Source: an uncultured Pelagibacteraceae bacterium (GTDB lineage: Bacteria; Pseudomonadota; Alphaproteobacteria; Pelagibacterales; Pelagibacteraceae). From it: a stretch of 64,000 nt of DNA. Shown piece by piece: positions 1-8,917 of the stretch. The translations under genes were made by a program, and so were the position numbers. Position 1 is the stretch's first letter. Every line of letters starts with the position of its first letter. Where the stretch lies: the NCBI GenBank assembly GCA_902572345.1, contig CACGEW010000002.1:1-64000 (forward strand). The letters run 5' to 3'. A model generated the notes under the pieces. The model saw nothing but the letters and a program-made list of their open reading frames with translations, searched no databases and was not told the origin of the DNA.

Positions 1-1
1 G

Positions 2-238
2 CCAGCATTAACGACCACCCTGCCGGCTCAACTTTCAATTAAATATAATATGAATATAATACCTGTATTTATTAAAAGAGAGAGTGATGAAAAATTTATT
101 ATAGAATTTTATAAAGAGATTAACCCAAACAACTTTAAAGATAAAATTGATTTAACTTTAAAGCTTAATAAAATTTTAGAGGCAATGATTCTTAAAAATC
201 CTAGCCAGTGGATCTGGACTCACAATAGATGGAAATAA
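2..238 (+). CDS. lpxL: LpxL-type lipid A acyltransferase, C-terminal fragment (5' end outside window)
   Basis: The frame is open from the first bases of the window. It reads PALTTTLPAQLSIKYN before the first internal Met at 50 and ends with NPSQWIWTHNRWK, the characteristic C-terminus of Kdo2-lipid A lauroyl/myristoyl acyltransferases. These membrane enzymes add the secondary acyl chain to lipid A. Only about 78 C-terminal residues are visible, and the catalytic HX4(D/E) region would lie upstream of the window. The oddity is its position: an LpxL N-terminus sits immediately to the right on the opposite strand, so the two halves of one gene face each other. This may be a real C-terminus next to a rearrangement, or the product of a chimeric contig end. 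Confidence 0.8.
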   Translation, partial: PALTTTLPAQLSIKYNMNIIPVFIKRESDEKFIIEFYKEINPNNFKDKIDLTLKLNKILEAMILKNPSQWIWTHNRWK

Positions 239-239
239 A

Positions 240-620
240 TTATTTTTTATTTTTTTTGTGTCTTTCGTTCACCTCTACCGGGGAAAAATAAGCTTCTTGC
301 AAATCTACACTCCAATAATTGAGATTTTGCAAATCAATTTTTTTTCCTGAAATTGCGCATAAAAAAATATATTCTATGAATGTTTTTCCATAATTTTTCC
401 ACATGCCTTTTATAGTATCTTGACGATTGATTGATTTAGATTCTTTAAAAACATTTTCTAGATTCTTATTAATAATTTTTTTTGACCTAAATATCGGGCC
501 AAAAAAATTAAATAAATTTGCAAAGATTTTTCTACTTAATTTTAAGCCCAAAACACGTCCAATTAAAAAAAAGAAATAGATAAAAATTGATTGAATAAAA
601 TAACTTAAAAATTTAATCAT
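240..620 (-). pseudogene. Chimeric ORF: LpxL N-terminus joined to DUF2093-like C-terminus
   Basis: The first ~87 residues (620 down to about 360) look like the start of an LpxL acyltransferase: an N-terminal membrane segment, then ENVFKES and a GMWKNYGKTFIEYIFL block. The start overlaps the end of lpxK by 8 nt, the position expected for lpxL after msbA-waaA-lpxK. After about position 360 the similarity stops. The last 39 residues (CAISGKK, then NYWSVDLQEAYFSPVEV) instead resemble the C-terminus of the short DUF2093 family, recognised from memory. The HX4(D/E) acyltransferase motif is absent, so the product is not a working LpxL. The remainder of LpxL lies inverted at 2-238. Confidence 0.7.
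350..372. other. Probable rearrangement or chimera junction inside lpxL
   Basis: Protein similarity on the minus strand switches from LpxL to a DUF2093-like tail at about position 360, inside a T/A-rich stretch. The DUF2093-like piece then converges with the LpxL C-terminus on +, with a 1-nt gap between stop codons. The order fits a fold-back in which synthesis moved from lpxL onto the opposite strand of a downstream convergent gene and ran back through lpxL. The exact breakpoint cannot be fixed from one sequence. Confidence 0.5.
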
Positions 621-1542
621 TTAACCTCTTAACTTTATTAATAAGCAAATCTTTATTGTGTATCTCTAAAGAAACTTTTAAATAGTTTATTTCATTTAAT
701 TTAAAATCCTTAATTTTAAAAAAATCTTTTTCTGTCATTATTATTTCACAATTTTTTTCTTTAGCGTTGTCGATAATACCTTTGATTTCCTGGTAAGAAA
801 ATCTATGATGATCAGGGAAAATTATTTCTTTTTCAATAATTAAATTATTTTCTTTCAATAAATTAAAAAAATTTTCAGGATTTCCTATTCCTGCTATAGC
901 AAATAATTTTTTTTTTAAAAATTGTTGAATATTGACTGGTTGATATCTAGAATAAATAATTTCTAACTCGGGATTGATTTTAAGAATTTGCTTCTCAAAT
1001 TTCTCATTTTTCTCTCCGTTAATTATTACTATTTGTACACTTTTAAGTGAATTAAGGTTTTCTCTTAATGGTCCGGAAGGTAAAACAAGTCCGTTACCAA
1101 TTAATTGATTTTGATTAAAACAGACAATACTCAGATTTTTTTTTATTGAGTAATCTTGTAGTCCATCATCAAGGATTACTATATCGTGGTTGGAATTTTC
1201 TAATTCCTTTAAAGCTTCTAATCTACTTTGACAAAGAAACAAGTTCTCAAAATCATTTTTAATAAGATTGTGCTCATCCTTGTGGCTTTCATAAAATTTT
1301 CTTAAAATCACTGGTTTCATACCTAAGTTTGTTAATTCTTTACCTAAATAAATTGACAACGGAGTTTTACCTGTCCCACCCACATAAATATTACCGACAC
1401 AAACTATTGGAATATTGAATTTATGTACCCTAGAAATTTTTTTTTTTAAAAAAATAAAAAATAAAATCAGCAATGTTATAGGAAATAAAAGAAAGGCGTA
1501 AAAACCTTTTTTTTTATCCCAAAATTTTGGTTTATTAATCAT
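613..1542 (-). CDS. lpxK: Tetraacyldisaccharide 4'-kinase
   Basis: LpxK phosphorylates the 4' position of the lipid A disaccharide at the inner membrane. The 309-residue protein has an N-terminal membrane segment (about residues 15-32), a Walker A motif GGTGKT at 55-60 and a conserved DDGLQ motif near residue 124, all standard for LpxK and at normal length. The gene overlaps waaA upstream and the lpxL fragment downstream by 8 nt each, which indicates translational coupling in an msbA-waaA-lpxK-lpxL lipid A operon. Function is assigned with high confidence from motifs and context. Confidence 0.93.
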   Translation of the reverse strand: MINKPKFWDKKKGFYAFLLFPITLLILFFIFLKKKISRVHKFNIPIVCVGNIYVGGTGKTPLSIYLGKELTNLGMKPVILRKFYESHKDEHNLIKNDFENLFLCQSRLEALKELENSNHDIVILDDGLQDYSIKKNLSIVCFNQNQLIGNGLVLPSGPLRENLNSLKSVQIVIINGEKNEKFEKQILKINPELEIIYSRYQPVNIQQFLKKKLFAIAGIGNPENFFNLLKENNLIIEKEIIFPDHHRFSYQEIKGIIDNAKEKNCEIIMTEKDFFKIKDFKLNEINYLKVSLEIHNKDLLINKVKRLND

Positions 1543-2815
1543 TTTTAAATAAAAAACTATCTAATATTTTAAGTGTATCAGTTAAAGTATTTCGACCCAA
1601 ATCATTAATTATATTTGTATTTTGAATTTTTTGTTTTTGATTATCTTGAAGATCTATAATTAAATTTTTGTATAATTCTTCAAAGTTTTCAATTTTTTGT
1701 GAAATATTATAATTTGATAAAACTTCATATGTTTCTTTAAAATTATAAACATATGGGCCGTGATAAATTTTACAATTTAACTTTGCTGCTTCAATTGGAT
1801 TTTGACCTCCATTATTTTTAAATTTTGCTATTGCAGACTTACCTAAAAATACACTTTTTGCGTATTTAAAGTAATTTTGTAACACGCCGTAATGGTTAAC
1901 GATTATTATATCTTTGTCTTTTGAAATTAACTCGTTTTTATTATTCAAAATTTGTAAGTTTAAATCATATTTTTTAGATAAAGATTTTATTTCTCGAACT
2001 CTATTAATATGTCTAGGAGCTATAATTGTAATAATTTCACTAAACTCTTTTTTGAGCTTCAAATGTGTTTTAATACATAAAGCATCTTCCCCTTCATGAG
2101 TGCTAGCTGCGAACCAAAATTTTCTTTCAGATAAAATATTTTCGTTTATATTATGAATTTTTTGTGAATTCAAATTTCCAATTAATTTTATGTTTCCTTT
2201 AAAGTGAATATTATTTGCATGTAGTTTCTCCAAATAACCTTTAGTTTCATTGCTAGAACACAAACATAAACTAAAAATACCAAATATTCTTTTGGCAACT
2301 TTTGGAAACATCATCCATCTATAAAAAGATTTTCTTGTTATTCTAGCATTTATTAATGCTATTGGAATTTGAAGTTTTTCAGCCTTTAAGATTAAATTAG
2401 GCCAGATCTCCGAGTCCACAAGAAATATTCTATCTGGTCTCCATAATTTTAAAAATTTTTCAATGAGAAAATCTATATCAAAAGGAAAAAATCTGTGGGA
2501 AGCATTATTAAACCTTTTTAACTCTTTTTGTGCTAAATTACTTGAACTTAATGTAGTAGTTGTAACTAAAAATTTTAAATTTTGGTTATTATTTAATTTT
2601 TCAATTATTGGGATAATACTTTTGAATTCTCCTAGACTTGAAGCGTGAAACCAAATTAATTTACATTGGCCTTTTTCAACTGGATTAAAGTTAGAAATTA
2701 GAATTTTTTCCAAGAATCTTTTTGGATCTTCTTTTTTAAAAATTATTCTTAAAAATAAAAAAATAAATAAAAAAGGATATAATATTGTTCCAAAGACTCT
2801 ATAGGCAAGAATCAT
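1535..2815 (-). CDS. waaA: 3-deoxy-D-manno-octulosonic acid (Kdo) transferase
   Basis: WaaA (KdtA) transfers Kdo from CMP-Kdo to lipid IVA at the cytoplasmic face of the inner membrane. The 426-residue protein has an N-terminal hydrophobic anchor (residues 7-25). It then carries HASSLGEF with the conserved catalytic-base Glu at about residue 62, VDSEIWPNLI and a C-terminal GGQNPIEAA motif, all typical of this GT30 family. Its start lies 1 nt from the end of msbA and it overlaps lpxK, so it is part of the same transcript. Whether it adds one or two Kdo residues cannot be read from the sequence. Confidence 0.93.
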   Translation of the reverse strand: MILAYRVFGTILYPFLFIFLFLRIIFKKEDPKRFLEKILISNFNPVEKGQCKLIWFHASSLGEFKSIIPIIEKLNNNQNLKFLVTTTTLSSSNLAQKELKRFNNASHRFFPFDIDFLIEKFLKLWRPDRIFLVDSEIWPNLILKAEKLQIPIALINARITRKSFYRWMMFPKVAKRIFGIFSLCLCSSNETKGYLEKLHANNIHFKGNIKLIGNLNSQKIHNINENILSERKFWFAASTHEGEDALCIKTHLKLKKEFSEIITIIAPRHINRVREIKSLSKKYDLNLQILNNKNELISKDKDIIIVNHYGVLQNYFKYAKSVFLGKSAIAKFKNNGGQNPIEAAKLNCKIYHGPYVYNFKETYEVLSNYNISQKIENFEELYKNLIIDLQDNQKQKIQNTNIINDLGRNTLTDTLKILDSFLFKND

Positions 2816-2816
2816 T

Positions 2817-4559
2817 TTATTTTAATTGTTTTTTATATAGAGATTTATATTCTTCACAATTTTTGATTAAAAATTCATGTGTTCCATTATCTATAATTTC
2901 TCCATTTTTCATTACAAAAATCACATCTGCATTATGTATAGTTGAAAGTCTATGAGCAATCACTAAGGTCGTCTTATTCTTAATCAAATTTAATATTGCA
3001 TTTTGTACAATTTGCTCTGAGTCAGCATCTAGAGAAGAGGTTGCTTCATCTAACAATATTATAGACGACTCCTTTAATATTGCTCTAGCAATAGATATTC
3101 TTTGTTTTTGACCACCAGAGAGTCTTACTCCATTTTCACCAATCATTGTCTGAATTTTATCAGGCATTTTGTCTATAAACTCATCTGCGGCTGCGAATTT
3201 ACAAGCTTCTTCTATTTCTTTTTCGGAAGCATTATTTTTTGCGTATGCAATATTATTTTTTATTGTGTCATCGAAAAGAATTACATCTTGACTTACTAAA
3301 GATATATTTTTTCTTAAAGAGCTTAATCTGATTTTAGAAATATCTTGATCGTCAATCTTAATTTTTCCATCTTGAGGATCATAAAATCTTGGTAGGAGAT
3401 TAAGGATAGTGCTTTTACCAGCACCACTATGCCCAACAAAAGCAGCCATTGTGCCACCTTTAATTGAAAAGTTTATATTTTTTATAGTTTGGTTTTTAAC
3501 GGTATCATATTTGAAAAAAACCTTATCGTAAACTATATCATTATTTTTTAAAATTAAATCAGGTAATTCAAAATTTTCTTTCACTTGAATTTTTTTATCT
3601 ATTACTTTGCTTACACGTTTAAACGCAGTGGCACCTTGATATACTGTTAAATTTAAAGTCGCTAGAGAACGAATTGGTTGATAAGCTAACATCATCGCAG
3701 TCAAGAATGAAAAAAAATTATTTATCTCTAGTTCCCCTGCAGCAATTAATGTTCCAGAGAAACCTATAAAACCAGCAATCATTATCCCCGTGAGTGTCTC
3801 CATTAAGGGTGTGGCTCTAATCATTACGCTTGAAGTTTTAATATTTTTTTCAATCATATCATTAATTACAGTTTCAGCTTCCATTCCAACTTCTTTTTCC
3901 TTTTGATATATCCTAATCATTTTTGCTCCTCTGAATATTTCAGACAAGAAAGTTACTAAAACTCCAGATGCTTCACCGGCTTTTCCGACAGCTTTACCTA
4001 TTCTTTTACCTAAAGATTTGGCTAATCCACCAGCTAAAGGCATCATTAGCATAGCAAACAACGCTAACTTCCAATTTTGATAGACCATTACTCCTACTAA
4101 TGCCACAACTGAAAAACTATCTTTCATTAAATTTAAAACTCCTGTGCTGACTAAATGTTGTATTTGACCAGTGTCATAAAGAACATTGGAAACATATTTT
4201 CCTGAGTGCCTGCTATCTAAAGTTTGAATGTCACTTTTTATGATATTATCTGTAATTTGCTTCTTAACTTCCCCCGATACTTCTTCACCAACTCTTATAA
4301 TTGTAAGCCTTGCTATATATAAAGATATACCTTTACCGGCAAAAGCTAATATTATTAAAATAGGTATTAACCAAGAAAAAGTAGTATTTTTTTCAATAAA
4401 TATTTTTTTTACTGCTGGGTCTAAAAGCCAAGCTATAGAAGAAGTACTTCCAGCTACAAGTATTGATAAAAATAATGCCAAAAAGATTTTTTTTAAATGT
4501 TTTCTGACATATTCTCTAAAAAGTCTTTTTAGTATTGATACTACTTCTTTAAATTCCAT
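2817..4559 (-). CDS. msbA: Lipid A flippase-type ABC transporter, MsbA family
   Basis: This 580-residue half-transporter has an N-terminal six-helix transmembrane domain (roughly residues 20-310). The C-terminal ATPase domain carries Walker A GHSGAGKST at about 375, the signature LSGGQ at about 480 and Walker B ILLDEATSSLD at about 500. MsbA homodimers flip lipid A-core across the inner membrane. The location directly upstream of waaA and lpxK supports that role over a general multidrug exporter, although the fold alone cannot tell them apart. It overlaps the end of ubiA by 11 nt. Confidence 0.9.
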   Translation of the reverse strand: MEFKEVVSILKRLFREYVRKHLKKIFLALFLSILVAGSTSSIAWLLDPAVKKIFIEKNTTFSWLIPILIILAFAGKGISLYIARLTIIRVGEEVSGEVKKQITDNIIKSDIQTLDSRHSGKYVSNVLYDTGQIQHLVSTGVLNLMKDSFSVVALVGVMVYQNWKLALFAMLMMPLAGGLAKSLGKRIGKAVGKAGEASGVLVTFLSEIFRGAKMIRIYQKEKEVGMEAETVINDMIEKNIKTSSVMIRATPLMETLTGIMIAGFIGFSGTLIAAGELEINNFFSFLTAMMLAYQPIRSLATLNLTVYQGATAFKRVSKVIDKKIQVKENFELPDLILKNNDIVYDKVFFKYDTVKNQTIKNINFSIKGGTMAAFVGHSGAGKSTILNLLPRFYDPQDGKIKIDDQDISKIRLSSLRKNISLVSQDVILFDDTIKNNIAYAKNNASEKEIEEACKFAAADEFIDKMPDKIQTMIGENGVRLSGGQKQRISIARAILKESSIILLDEATSSLDADSEQIVQNAILNLIKNKTTLVIAHRLSTIHNADVIFVMKNGEIIDNGTHEFLIKNCEEYKSLYKKQLK

Positions 4560-5421
4560 AACTTAAATCTTTTGAAAATATAGCTAAAAACAAAAATATT
4601 CCCGAGTAATTGTTGATTTTAAACATTCGTAAGCATTCTTTATGATTTGACTCATCAAATTTTAAAATTTGAAATAATAAACTCAAAACAAATAAAATAA
4701 AAAAAAATGATAAAATATTTACCCCTATTGAGTCTTTGAATAATAAAATTAAAAGTAATGATGTTATAAAATAATTTATACTCACAAAGGTTTTTATATT
4801 TTTTTTAAACTTAATCGAAGTTGATTTCACTCCAATAATCTCATCATCAACAATATCTTGTGCTCCATAAATCGTGTCATAACCCAATGTCCAAAATATG
4901 GCTGATATGTAAAGAATTATTACTTCTAAAGATATATAGTTATTGAGCGCCACCCAAGCCATAATAATTCCCCAATTAAAGGTTATTCCTAAAAAAAGTT
5001 GAGGCCAATAAGTTATTCGTTTCATGAAAGGGTATGAAAAAGCTAAAAACATTGAACTTATACCTAACAAAATCGTTAATTTATTAAACTGTATCAAAAT
5101 AAGAAATGCTAAAAAACATAGACTTAAAGCATATATTAAAGACCAGAGAATTGATATTTTTCCTGCAGCAACAGGACGATTTTTTGTTCTCTCAACTTTT
5201 TTGTCAAAATCTTTATCAACAATGTCATTTATAATGCATCCTGCACTTCTCATCAAAACAGACCCGAAAAAAAATAATATTAAATAATAAAAAAATAAAT
5301 CTAATTCATAATTAATATTTTTTGTTAATGCTAAACCCCAAGAACAAGGCCAAAATAACAACATAAACCCAATCGGTTTGTTAAGTCTTGTTATTTCTAT
5401 GAATATTTTAATATGGTGCAT
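4549..5421 (-). CDS. ubiA: 4-hydroxybenzoate polyprenyltransferase
   Basis: UbiA attaches the polyprenyl tail to 4-hydroxybenzoate in ubiquinone synthesis. The 290-residue protein is strongly hydrophobic with about eight or nine membrane helices. The two Asp-rich prenyl-diphosphate motifs are present: NDIVDKDFD beginning near residue 65, followed by VERTKNRP, and DTIYGAQDIVDDE in the second half. It is the first gene of the run leading into msbA. Its start faces the DUF2721 gene across 53 nt. Ubiquinone feeds the bc1 complex and the oxidases encoded elsewhere in the window. Confidence 0.93.
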   Translation of the reverse strand: MHHIKIFIEITRLNKPIGFMLLFWPCSWGLALTKNINYELDLFFYYLILFFFGSVLMRSAGCIINDIVDKDFDKKVERTKNRPVAAGKISILWSLIYALSLCFLAFLILIQFNKLTILLGISSMFLAFSYPFMKRITYWPQLFLGITFNWGIIMAWVALNNYISLEVIILYISAIFWTLGYDTIYGAQDIVDDEIIGVKSTSIKFKKNIKTFVSINYFITSLLLILLFKDSIGVNILSFFFILFVLSLLFQILKFDESNHKECLRMFKINNYSGIFLFLAIFSKDLSYGI

Positions 5422-5474
5422 GAAATATTACTTGTAAATATCAAACACTAACTTCATAATCAATTTGATTCGAT

Positions 5475-8254: not shown

Positions 8255-8917
8255 TTATACAATATCTAATAACTGTTTCAAATTTTTAATTTGTTGTTTA
8301 GGTTTGTAATCAAGATTGTCAAAAATATTATTATTTCTATTTACCCAAATGGAGCTGTAACCATAATTTCCACCACCAGATACATCCCAAGTATTTGCAC
8401 TTAAAAATGCAACCTGTTCTTTTTGTATTTTATATTTTTTTATTGGCATGTCGTAAACTTTCGAGCTTGGTTTATAAATTCCTACTTCTTCAATAGAAAA
8501 AACATCATCAAAAATATTTTTTAAGTTATTGCTTTCAATTAACTCATTAAGAAGGGCAGGTGTTCCATTTGAAAGAATACTAAGTTTATAATTTTTTTCT
8601 TTCAAAGTTTTTAAAACTTCTGGAACCTCTTTGAATGGAGAGAGCACCTTGTAGAGATTAAGCAACTCATTTCTCATGGAGGTATTTATATCAAAAGCTT
8701 TCATCGATTTATCCAAGCTATCCTCTGTAATTTGCCAGAAGTCTTTATGTCTGTTCATCAAACTTCTTAGCCAAGTATATTCAAGTTGTGTAGTTCTCCA
8801 ATAATTGGCAAAACCTTCCCACTTACTACCGATTTTATCTTTACATTTTTCTGCAGCCGAATTGACATCAAAAAGGGTGCCATATGCATCAAAAATTATT
8901 GCTTTAATATTTTTCAT
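8255..8917 (-). CDS. Haloacid dehalogenase, type II (L-2-haloacid dehalogenase-like)
   Basis: The 220-residue HAD-fold hydrolase has the nucleophile Asp at residue 10 (FDAYGTLFDV), SILSNGTP in motif II, a Lys in GIYKPSSKVY, and the SANTWDVSGGGNYG block that is distinctive of L-2-haloacid dehalogenases. The enzyme would remove halide from short 2-haloacids with inversion. A small-molecule phosphatase activity cannot be excluded. It is the first gene of the minus run 8917-5886 and diverges from rsmE with only 17 nt between starts. Confidence 0.85.
   Translation of the reverse strand: MKNIKAIIFDAYGTLFDVNSAAEKCKDKIGSKWEGFANYWRTTQLEYTWLRSLMNRHKDFWQITEDSLDKSMKAFDINTSMRNELLNLYKVLSPFKEVPEVLKTLKEKNYKLSILSNGTPALLNELIESNNLKNIFDDVFSIEEVGIYKPSSKVYDMPIKKYKIQKEQVAFLSANTWDVSGGGNYGYSSIWVNRNNNIFDNLDYKPKQQIKNLKQLLDIV

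Follow-up and report, generated by a model that had tools for sequence, protein, structure and literature searches.

A probable amplification chimera joining inverted parts of lpxL and a DUF2093 gene at a contig start of an uncultured Pelagibacteraceae bacterium

Inverted MDA chimeras and the layout of the contig start

The closest described counterparts of the structure presented here are the inverted chimeras formed during multiple displacement amplification (MDA). In the sections of Lasken and Stockwell 2007 (PMC1855051) drawn on here, MDA of a single E. coli cell yielded 475 chimeras, of which 406 were inverted, and 337 of these 406 joined segments less than 10 kb apart. The amplified DNA carried approximately one chimeric junction per 22 kb. 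Short complementary bases (2–21 nt) at the join characterise such chimeras, and at least two shared bases were found in 93.5% of the close inverted ones. The inverted chimeras were attributed to 3' ends that are displaced and then prime anew on other displaced strands close by. For assemblies, a benchmark of a single-cell pipeline gave 1.5 misassemblies per 100 kb (PMC11247762); the "chimerism" treated in the sections of that paper used here refers to DNA from other organisms and has no bearing on the join at 359/360 described below.

The window (the whole 64,000-nucleotide stretch analysed) starts at base 1 of contig C2, in an assembly of 990,790 bases distributed over 21 contigs and 92% complete. 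Two pieces of lpxL lie on opposite strands at its start, separated by the end of a DUF2093 gene (Table 1).

Table 1. Features at the start of the window
Feature	Position	Strand	Description	Evidence
lpxL 3' end	1..238	+	codons 208–285 and stop (236–238); runs off the contig start	PF03279 profile 216–294, E 1.5e-15 (frame 2–238); alignment with six 285-aa relatives
DUF2093 gene 3' end	240..359	-	last 39 codons (359–243) and stop (242–240); native tail-to-tail position relative to the lpxL 3' end	PF09866 profile 9–42; alignment with four relatives
Chimeric inverted junction	359..360		lpxL codon 87 (TTA) on the minus strand joined to DUF2093 codon TGC	alignments; orientation flip relative to G167 between blocks 243–362 and 360–620
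lpxL 5' end	360..620	-	codons 1–87; collinear with lpxK and waaA	PF03279 profile 10–102, E 1.1e-8; six-relative alignment
lpxK	613..1542	-	full-length; usual upstream neighbour of lpxL	PF02606, E 1.2e-65
waaA	1535..2815	-	full-length; usual upstream neighbour	PF04413, E 1.3e-47

A single open frame of 126 amino acids extended on the minus strand from position 620 to 240, in which LpxL residues 1–87 precede the C-terminal 39 residues of a DUF2093 protein. The frame matched the DUF2093 profile with an E-value of 1e-15. The first-pass annotation had noted the resemblance of the 39 residues to DUF2093, and the Pfam search confirmed it with an E-value of 1.1e-16 when the tail was queried alone (as 40 residues, the additional one being an LpxL or shared residue). 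The tail aligned from the conserved CAISG motif to the C-terminus of DUF2093, with 67–77% identity to four relatives; the N-terminal part of the protein was missing and LpxL 1–87 stood in its place. The same annotation had placed an LpxL C-terminus on the plus strand up to position 238 and an LpxL N-terminus on the minus strand from 620 to about 360, and both were correctly located and identified. By comparison with six relatives of 285 residues, the two pieces corresponded to residues 1–87 and 208–285, residues 88–207 being absent. The stops of lpxL and of the DUF2093 gene were one base apart in the window. The broken gene pieces were free of interrupting stops, as would be the case both for an artefact and for a recent event. 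Up to five bases (TTTTA, 360–364) may be shared at the join and could be assigned to either side, the native sites of this genome being missing from its assembly.

The locus had first been described as a fold-back junction, with a path leading back through lpxL. The inverted junction was borne out. No lpxL sequence is duplicated inside the window, since the two pieces do not overlap, and a fold-back palindrome is thus not shown. A fold-back duplication in the genome itself, in which two copies of lpxL and of the genes upstream of it form the arms of an inverted repeat around a loop of approximately 720 bp, would produce the same single junction. The contig would then run on from position 1 through lpxL (207 to 88), followed again by the start of lpxL and by lpxK. 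In a profile search with E-values up to 10, no further LpxL or DUF2093 match was found in the assembly. A second copy of lpxL codons 1–87 was not found in the assembly either, and a search of window positions 1–3000 gave no inverted repeat arm of more than 29 bases; both results argue against a fold-back duplication. The instability of long perfect palindromes in bacteria also counts against it, and the objections raised below to a real inversion apply equally. We consider such a duplication extremely unlikely.

Native arrangement in relatives and position of the join

The lpxL and DUF2093 genes were surveyed in 61 genomes, comprising the window's own and 60 relatives belonging to the Pelagibacterales. 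Matches to LpxL and to DUF2093 were each found in 51 genomes. The two genes were on one contig and convergent in all 50 relatives that matched both families. Within the same genus they were immediately adjacent in 27 of 27 genomes, the matched profile regions being separated by 23–45 bases, and the two stops were a few bases apart or slightly overlapping. In another family of the order (f2, for example G037:C3:36348-38151), 822–971 bases separated the matches to lpxL and to the convergent DUF2093 gene in 23 of 23 genomes.

Positions 9–364 of contig C2 aligned as one piece with the block formed by the 3' ends of lpxL and DUF2093 in a relative, at 70% DNA identity. Because the two genes are convergent in relatives, the segment 1–359 is, to judge from these alignments, an ordinary native tail-to-tail block, and the join at 359/360 is the sole abnormal one. 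The true order on the chromosome is very probably waaA, lpxK, lpxL, the convergent DUF2093 gene and purD, as in relatives. These data agree with two earlier proposals, namely that the minus-strand gene order leads into lpxL (waaA and lpxK were collinear with the lpxL 5' end by comparison with relative G167) and that the path switches strand through a convergent gene downstream of lpxL.

The comparison with G167 showed that 71 of 73 aligned window blocks were collinear, with one order and orientation over the region 360–64000. The only flipped blocks were 5–235 and 243–362. In relatives, the two sites that the join links in inverted orientation were 715–744 bases apart (median of 720 in 33 distinct relative pairs). 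The spacing predicted from the window's own pieces, assuming the usual LpxL of 285 residues, was 718 bases. The equivalent sites shared no base in 20 of the 33 relatives, one to three bases in 5, four bases in 2 and five bases in 6; these values describe the relatives' sites, those of the window's genome being missing. Set against the at least two shared bases in 93.5% of close inverted chimeras in the cited paper, the values from the relatives may count against MDA.

The genes lpxL, lpxK, waaA, msbA and ubiA (window 1–5430, compared with positions 118.7–124.5 kb of contig C2 of G167) showed 52–72% protein identity, and the DUF2093 tail 82%. Among the remaining window blocks, 46 of 66 were at least 85% identical to G167 (range 60–100%). 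The low-identity lipid A block may be a replaced or fast-changing surface-lipid segment.

The join could also be real. In this case an inversion of approximately 720 bp would have flipped the 3' part of lpxL together with the 3' part of the DUF2093 gene, inactivating both. Such a two-breakpoint event predicts an identical left junction, the inverted block 1–359 is intact, and the far breakpoint would be out of view since the contig ends at position 1. Beyond that position the sequence would continue with lpxL 207 to 88, then with the first part of the DUF2093 gene. The lpxL broken by the inversion would be the sole one identified in the assembly, which argues against such an event. The 126-residue frame was matched in 130 of 169 genomes of the genus, including the window's own, and the 129 others matched in part. 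Among the matches listed for these 169 genomes, only the window's own carried the LpxL–DUF2093 join end to end, in one piece. This comparison, proposed with the first description of the locus, also stands against a real inversion. A search of viral contigs for a relative of the chimeric frame gave 28 candidate stretches, none of which was confirmed. We regard the inversion as very unlikely. The same slight chance is given to its full biological version, a recent inversion in a SAR11-type cell that inactivated its sole lpxL along with the conserved DUF2093 gene convergent to it, so that lipid A acylation was altered and an LpxL–DUF2093 fusion frame of 126 residues arose. If true, it would represent a lipid A mutant within a streamlined marine lineage.

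The assembly gap and the other contig ends

A segment of 9,400 bases of G167 was used as a query against the window's own assembly. The main matches stopped at query position 1007 (C2:364) and resumed at position 8372 (C9:2). The missing part, of approximately 7.36 kb (positions 124507–131872 of contig C2 of G167), contains the rest of the DUF2093 gene, purD, rsmD, the gene for glucose-6-phosphate isomerase, a small unnamed frame, lspA, ileS and part of ribF. Only three short matches to it (27–62 bases, E 1e-4 or weaker) were present in the assembly. As a positive control, the same 9,400 bases matched G167 in full, and both flanks were found in the window's assembly. A protein search gave no match in the assembly for the glucose-6-phosphate isomerase of the missing region. 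For purD and part of ileS, it gave only weak matches elsewhere in the assembly (25–30% identity), which were read as related enzymes. The join thus adjoins a hole in the assembly, since the 7.36 kb next to the start of C2 are absent from it. No overlap or inverted duplication with the left end of C2, such as a fold-back or an unresolved repeat would leave, was found among 41 contig ends, five of which were masked. A real inversion would require a chance coincidence with both a contig end and this gap of 7.4 kb.

The contig ends were then compared with approximately 1.03 Mb of G167, a reference without some 18 kb (the greater part of C9 together with short end pieces of further contigs). Of 42 ends, 41 were examined (the right end of C21 was left out); 5 were masked, and 32 of the 36 queries gave matches. 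The four ends without a match were C1_L, C6_R, C10_R and C18_L. The weak and uninformative matches of C9_R (38%) and C18_R (25%) were kept among the 32. End C5_L was flagged as mixed; its matches, of 30–39%, fell on two contigs without a change of orientation, and it was not counted as an inversion. For contigs shorter than 4 kb, the ends overlap each other.

Inverted joins within genes were observed at two of the 32 matched ends, the left end of C2 and the right end of C8, most ends showing none. In C8, lepA (EF-4; TIGR01393 profile 1–421 of 595) continues, without a change of frame, into the PDZ part of a C-terminal processing protease of family S41. The join lies at L126:1526-1528, 474 bases from the right contig end, with a three-base overlap between the two matches. 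The two parts are about 66 kb apart in G167 and in inverted orientation. A search for LepA_C, which detects it in 10 of 14 control genomes, gave no match in the assembly, where the sole S41 match is the one at this join. Shortly beyond it, the protease frame was broken at an A run (L126, about 1715–1730), as if sequence quality or coverage were low near the end of C8. Two genes broken by inverted joins, both at contig ends, suggest that the cause lies in the sample and not in the locus, which weighs against a real inversion at lpxL. The existence of a fragile site in lpxL, with an excess of contig ends there, was also considered. Several contig-end matches occurred in other genomes, but an approximate calculation based on the numbers of contigs suggests no excess.

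Origin of the join and comparison with known systems

The join at 359/360 most probably represents an artefact of DNA amplification, library making or assembly and not a feature of the chromosome, a reading to which, on the sequence comparisons available, we give a probability of approximately 0.93. The chimera at a contig end put forward in the first-pass annotation is supported by the collinearity of the rest of the window, by the missing adjoining region and by the second inverted join at the end of C8. The presence of joins at only 2 of the 32 matched ends counts against an artefact. As to how the artefact was made, an inverted MDA chimera is most likely, library making or assembly being less likely. 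Single-cell style names are carried by 14 of 17 named relatives, and the AG- and AH- prefixes are those that we take to designate single amplified genomes. These names, and the loss of sequence next to the join, lead us to infer that the genome derives from a single amplified cell.

In the model that we propose, a growing 3' end would have been freed during whole-genome amplification, and would presumably have primed again on a displaced strand of opposite polarity close by, at a distance of approximately 720 bases. This would have joined lpxL codon 87 in inverted orientation to the DUF2093 gene. Beyond this point, amplification was probably poor and coverage low, and no normal molecule would have competed. 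The assembler would have kept the chimeric molecule until coverage ended at position 1. This mechanism alone does not explain why the contig stops some 360 bases before the start of the would-be fold-back palindrome.

Within the probability given to an artefact, a smaller share goes to an error of assembly or library ligation without amplification, for example in a metagenome-assembled genome. A MAG label is present in the titles of 5 of the 17 relatives, three of them with AG- or AH- names and two without a single-cell style name (L074 and L075), which is in favour of this origin. The two sites in relatives hold no repeat that could mislead an assembler, with only 0–5 shared bases. In addition, the two joins at contig ends are both inverted, which is the form reported for MDA in the sections used of PMC1855051. 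An error of this kind is unlikely, to a lesser degree than a real inversion.

The case calls for caution at the contig ends of amplified genomes. Automated annotation could report here a false LpxL–DUF2093 fusion and score the lipid A acyltransferase as absent.

Compared with the LpxL/HtrB lipid A acyltransferases (PF03279), both pieces match the family. They lie on opposite strands, residues 88–207 are missing, and the assembly holds no full-length gene. Compared with DUF2093 (PF09866), the 39-residue tail matches profile positions 9–42, and LpxL 1–87 replaces the N-terminal part. Unlike the chimeras of Lasken and Stockwell, which were seen in reads, the present join is in an assembled contig, and we infer its amplification history. 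It resembles the inverted MDA chimera in two respects: the second segment is inverted at 359/360, both relative to G167 and to the native order of the 50 relatives, and the joined segments are close, being 715–744 bases apart in relatives, well within the distance of less than 10 kb typical of such chimeras.
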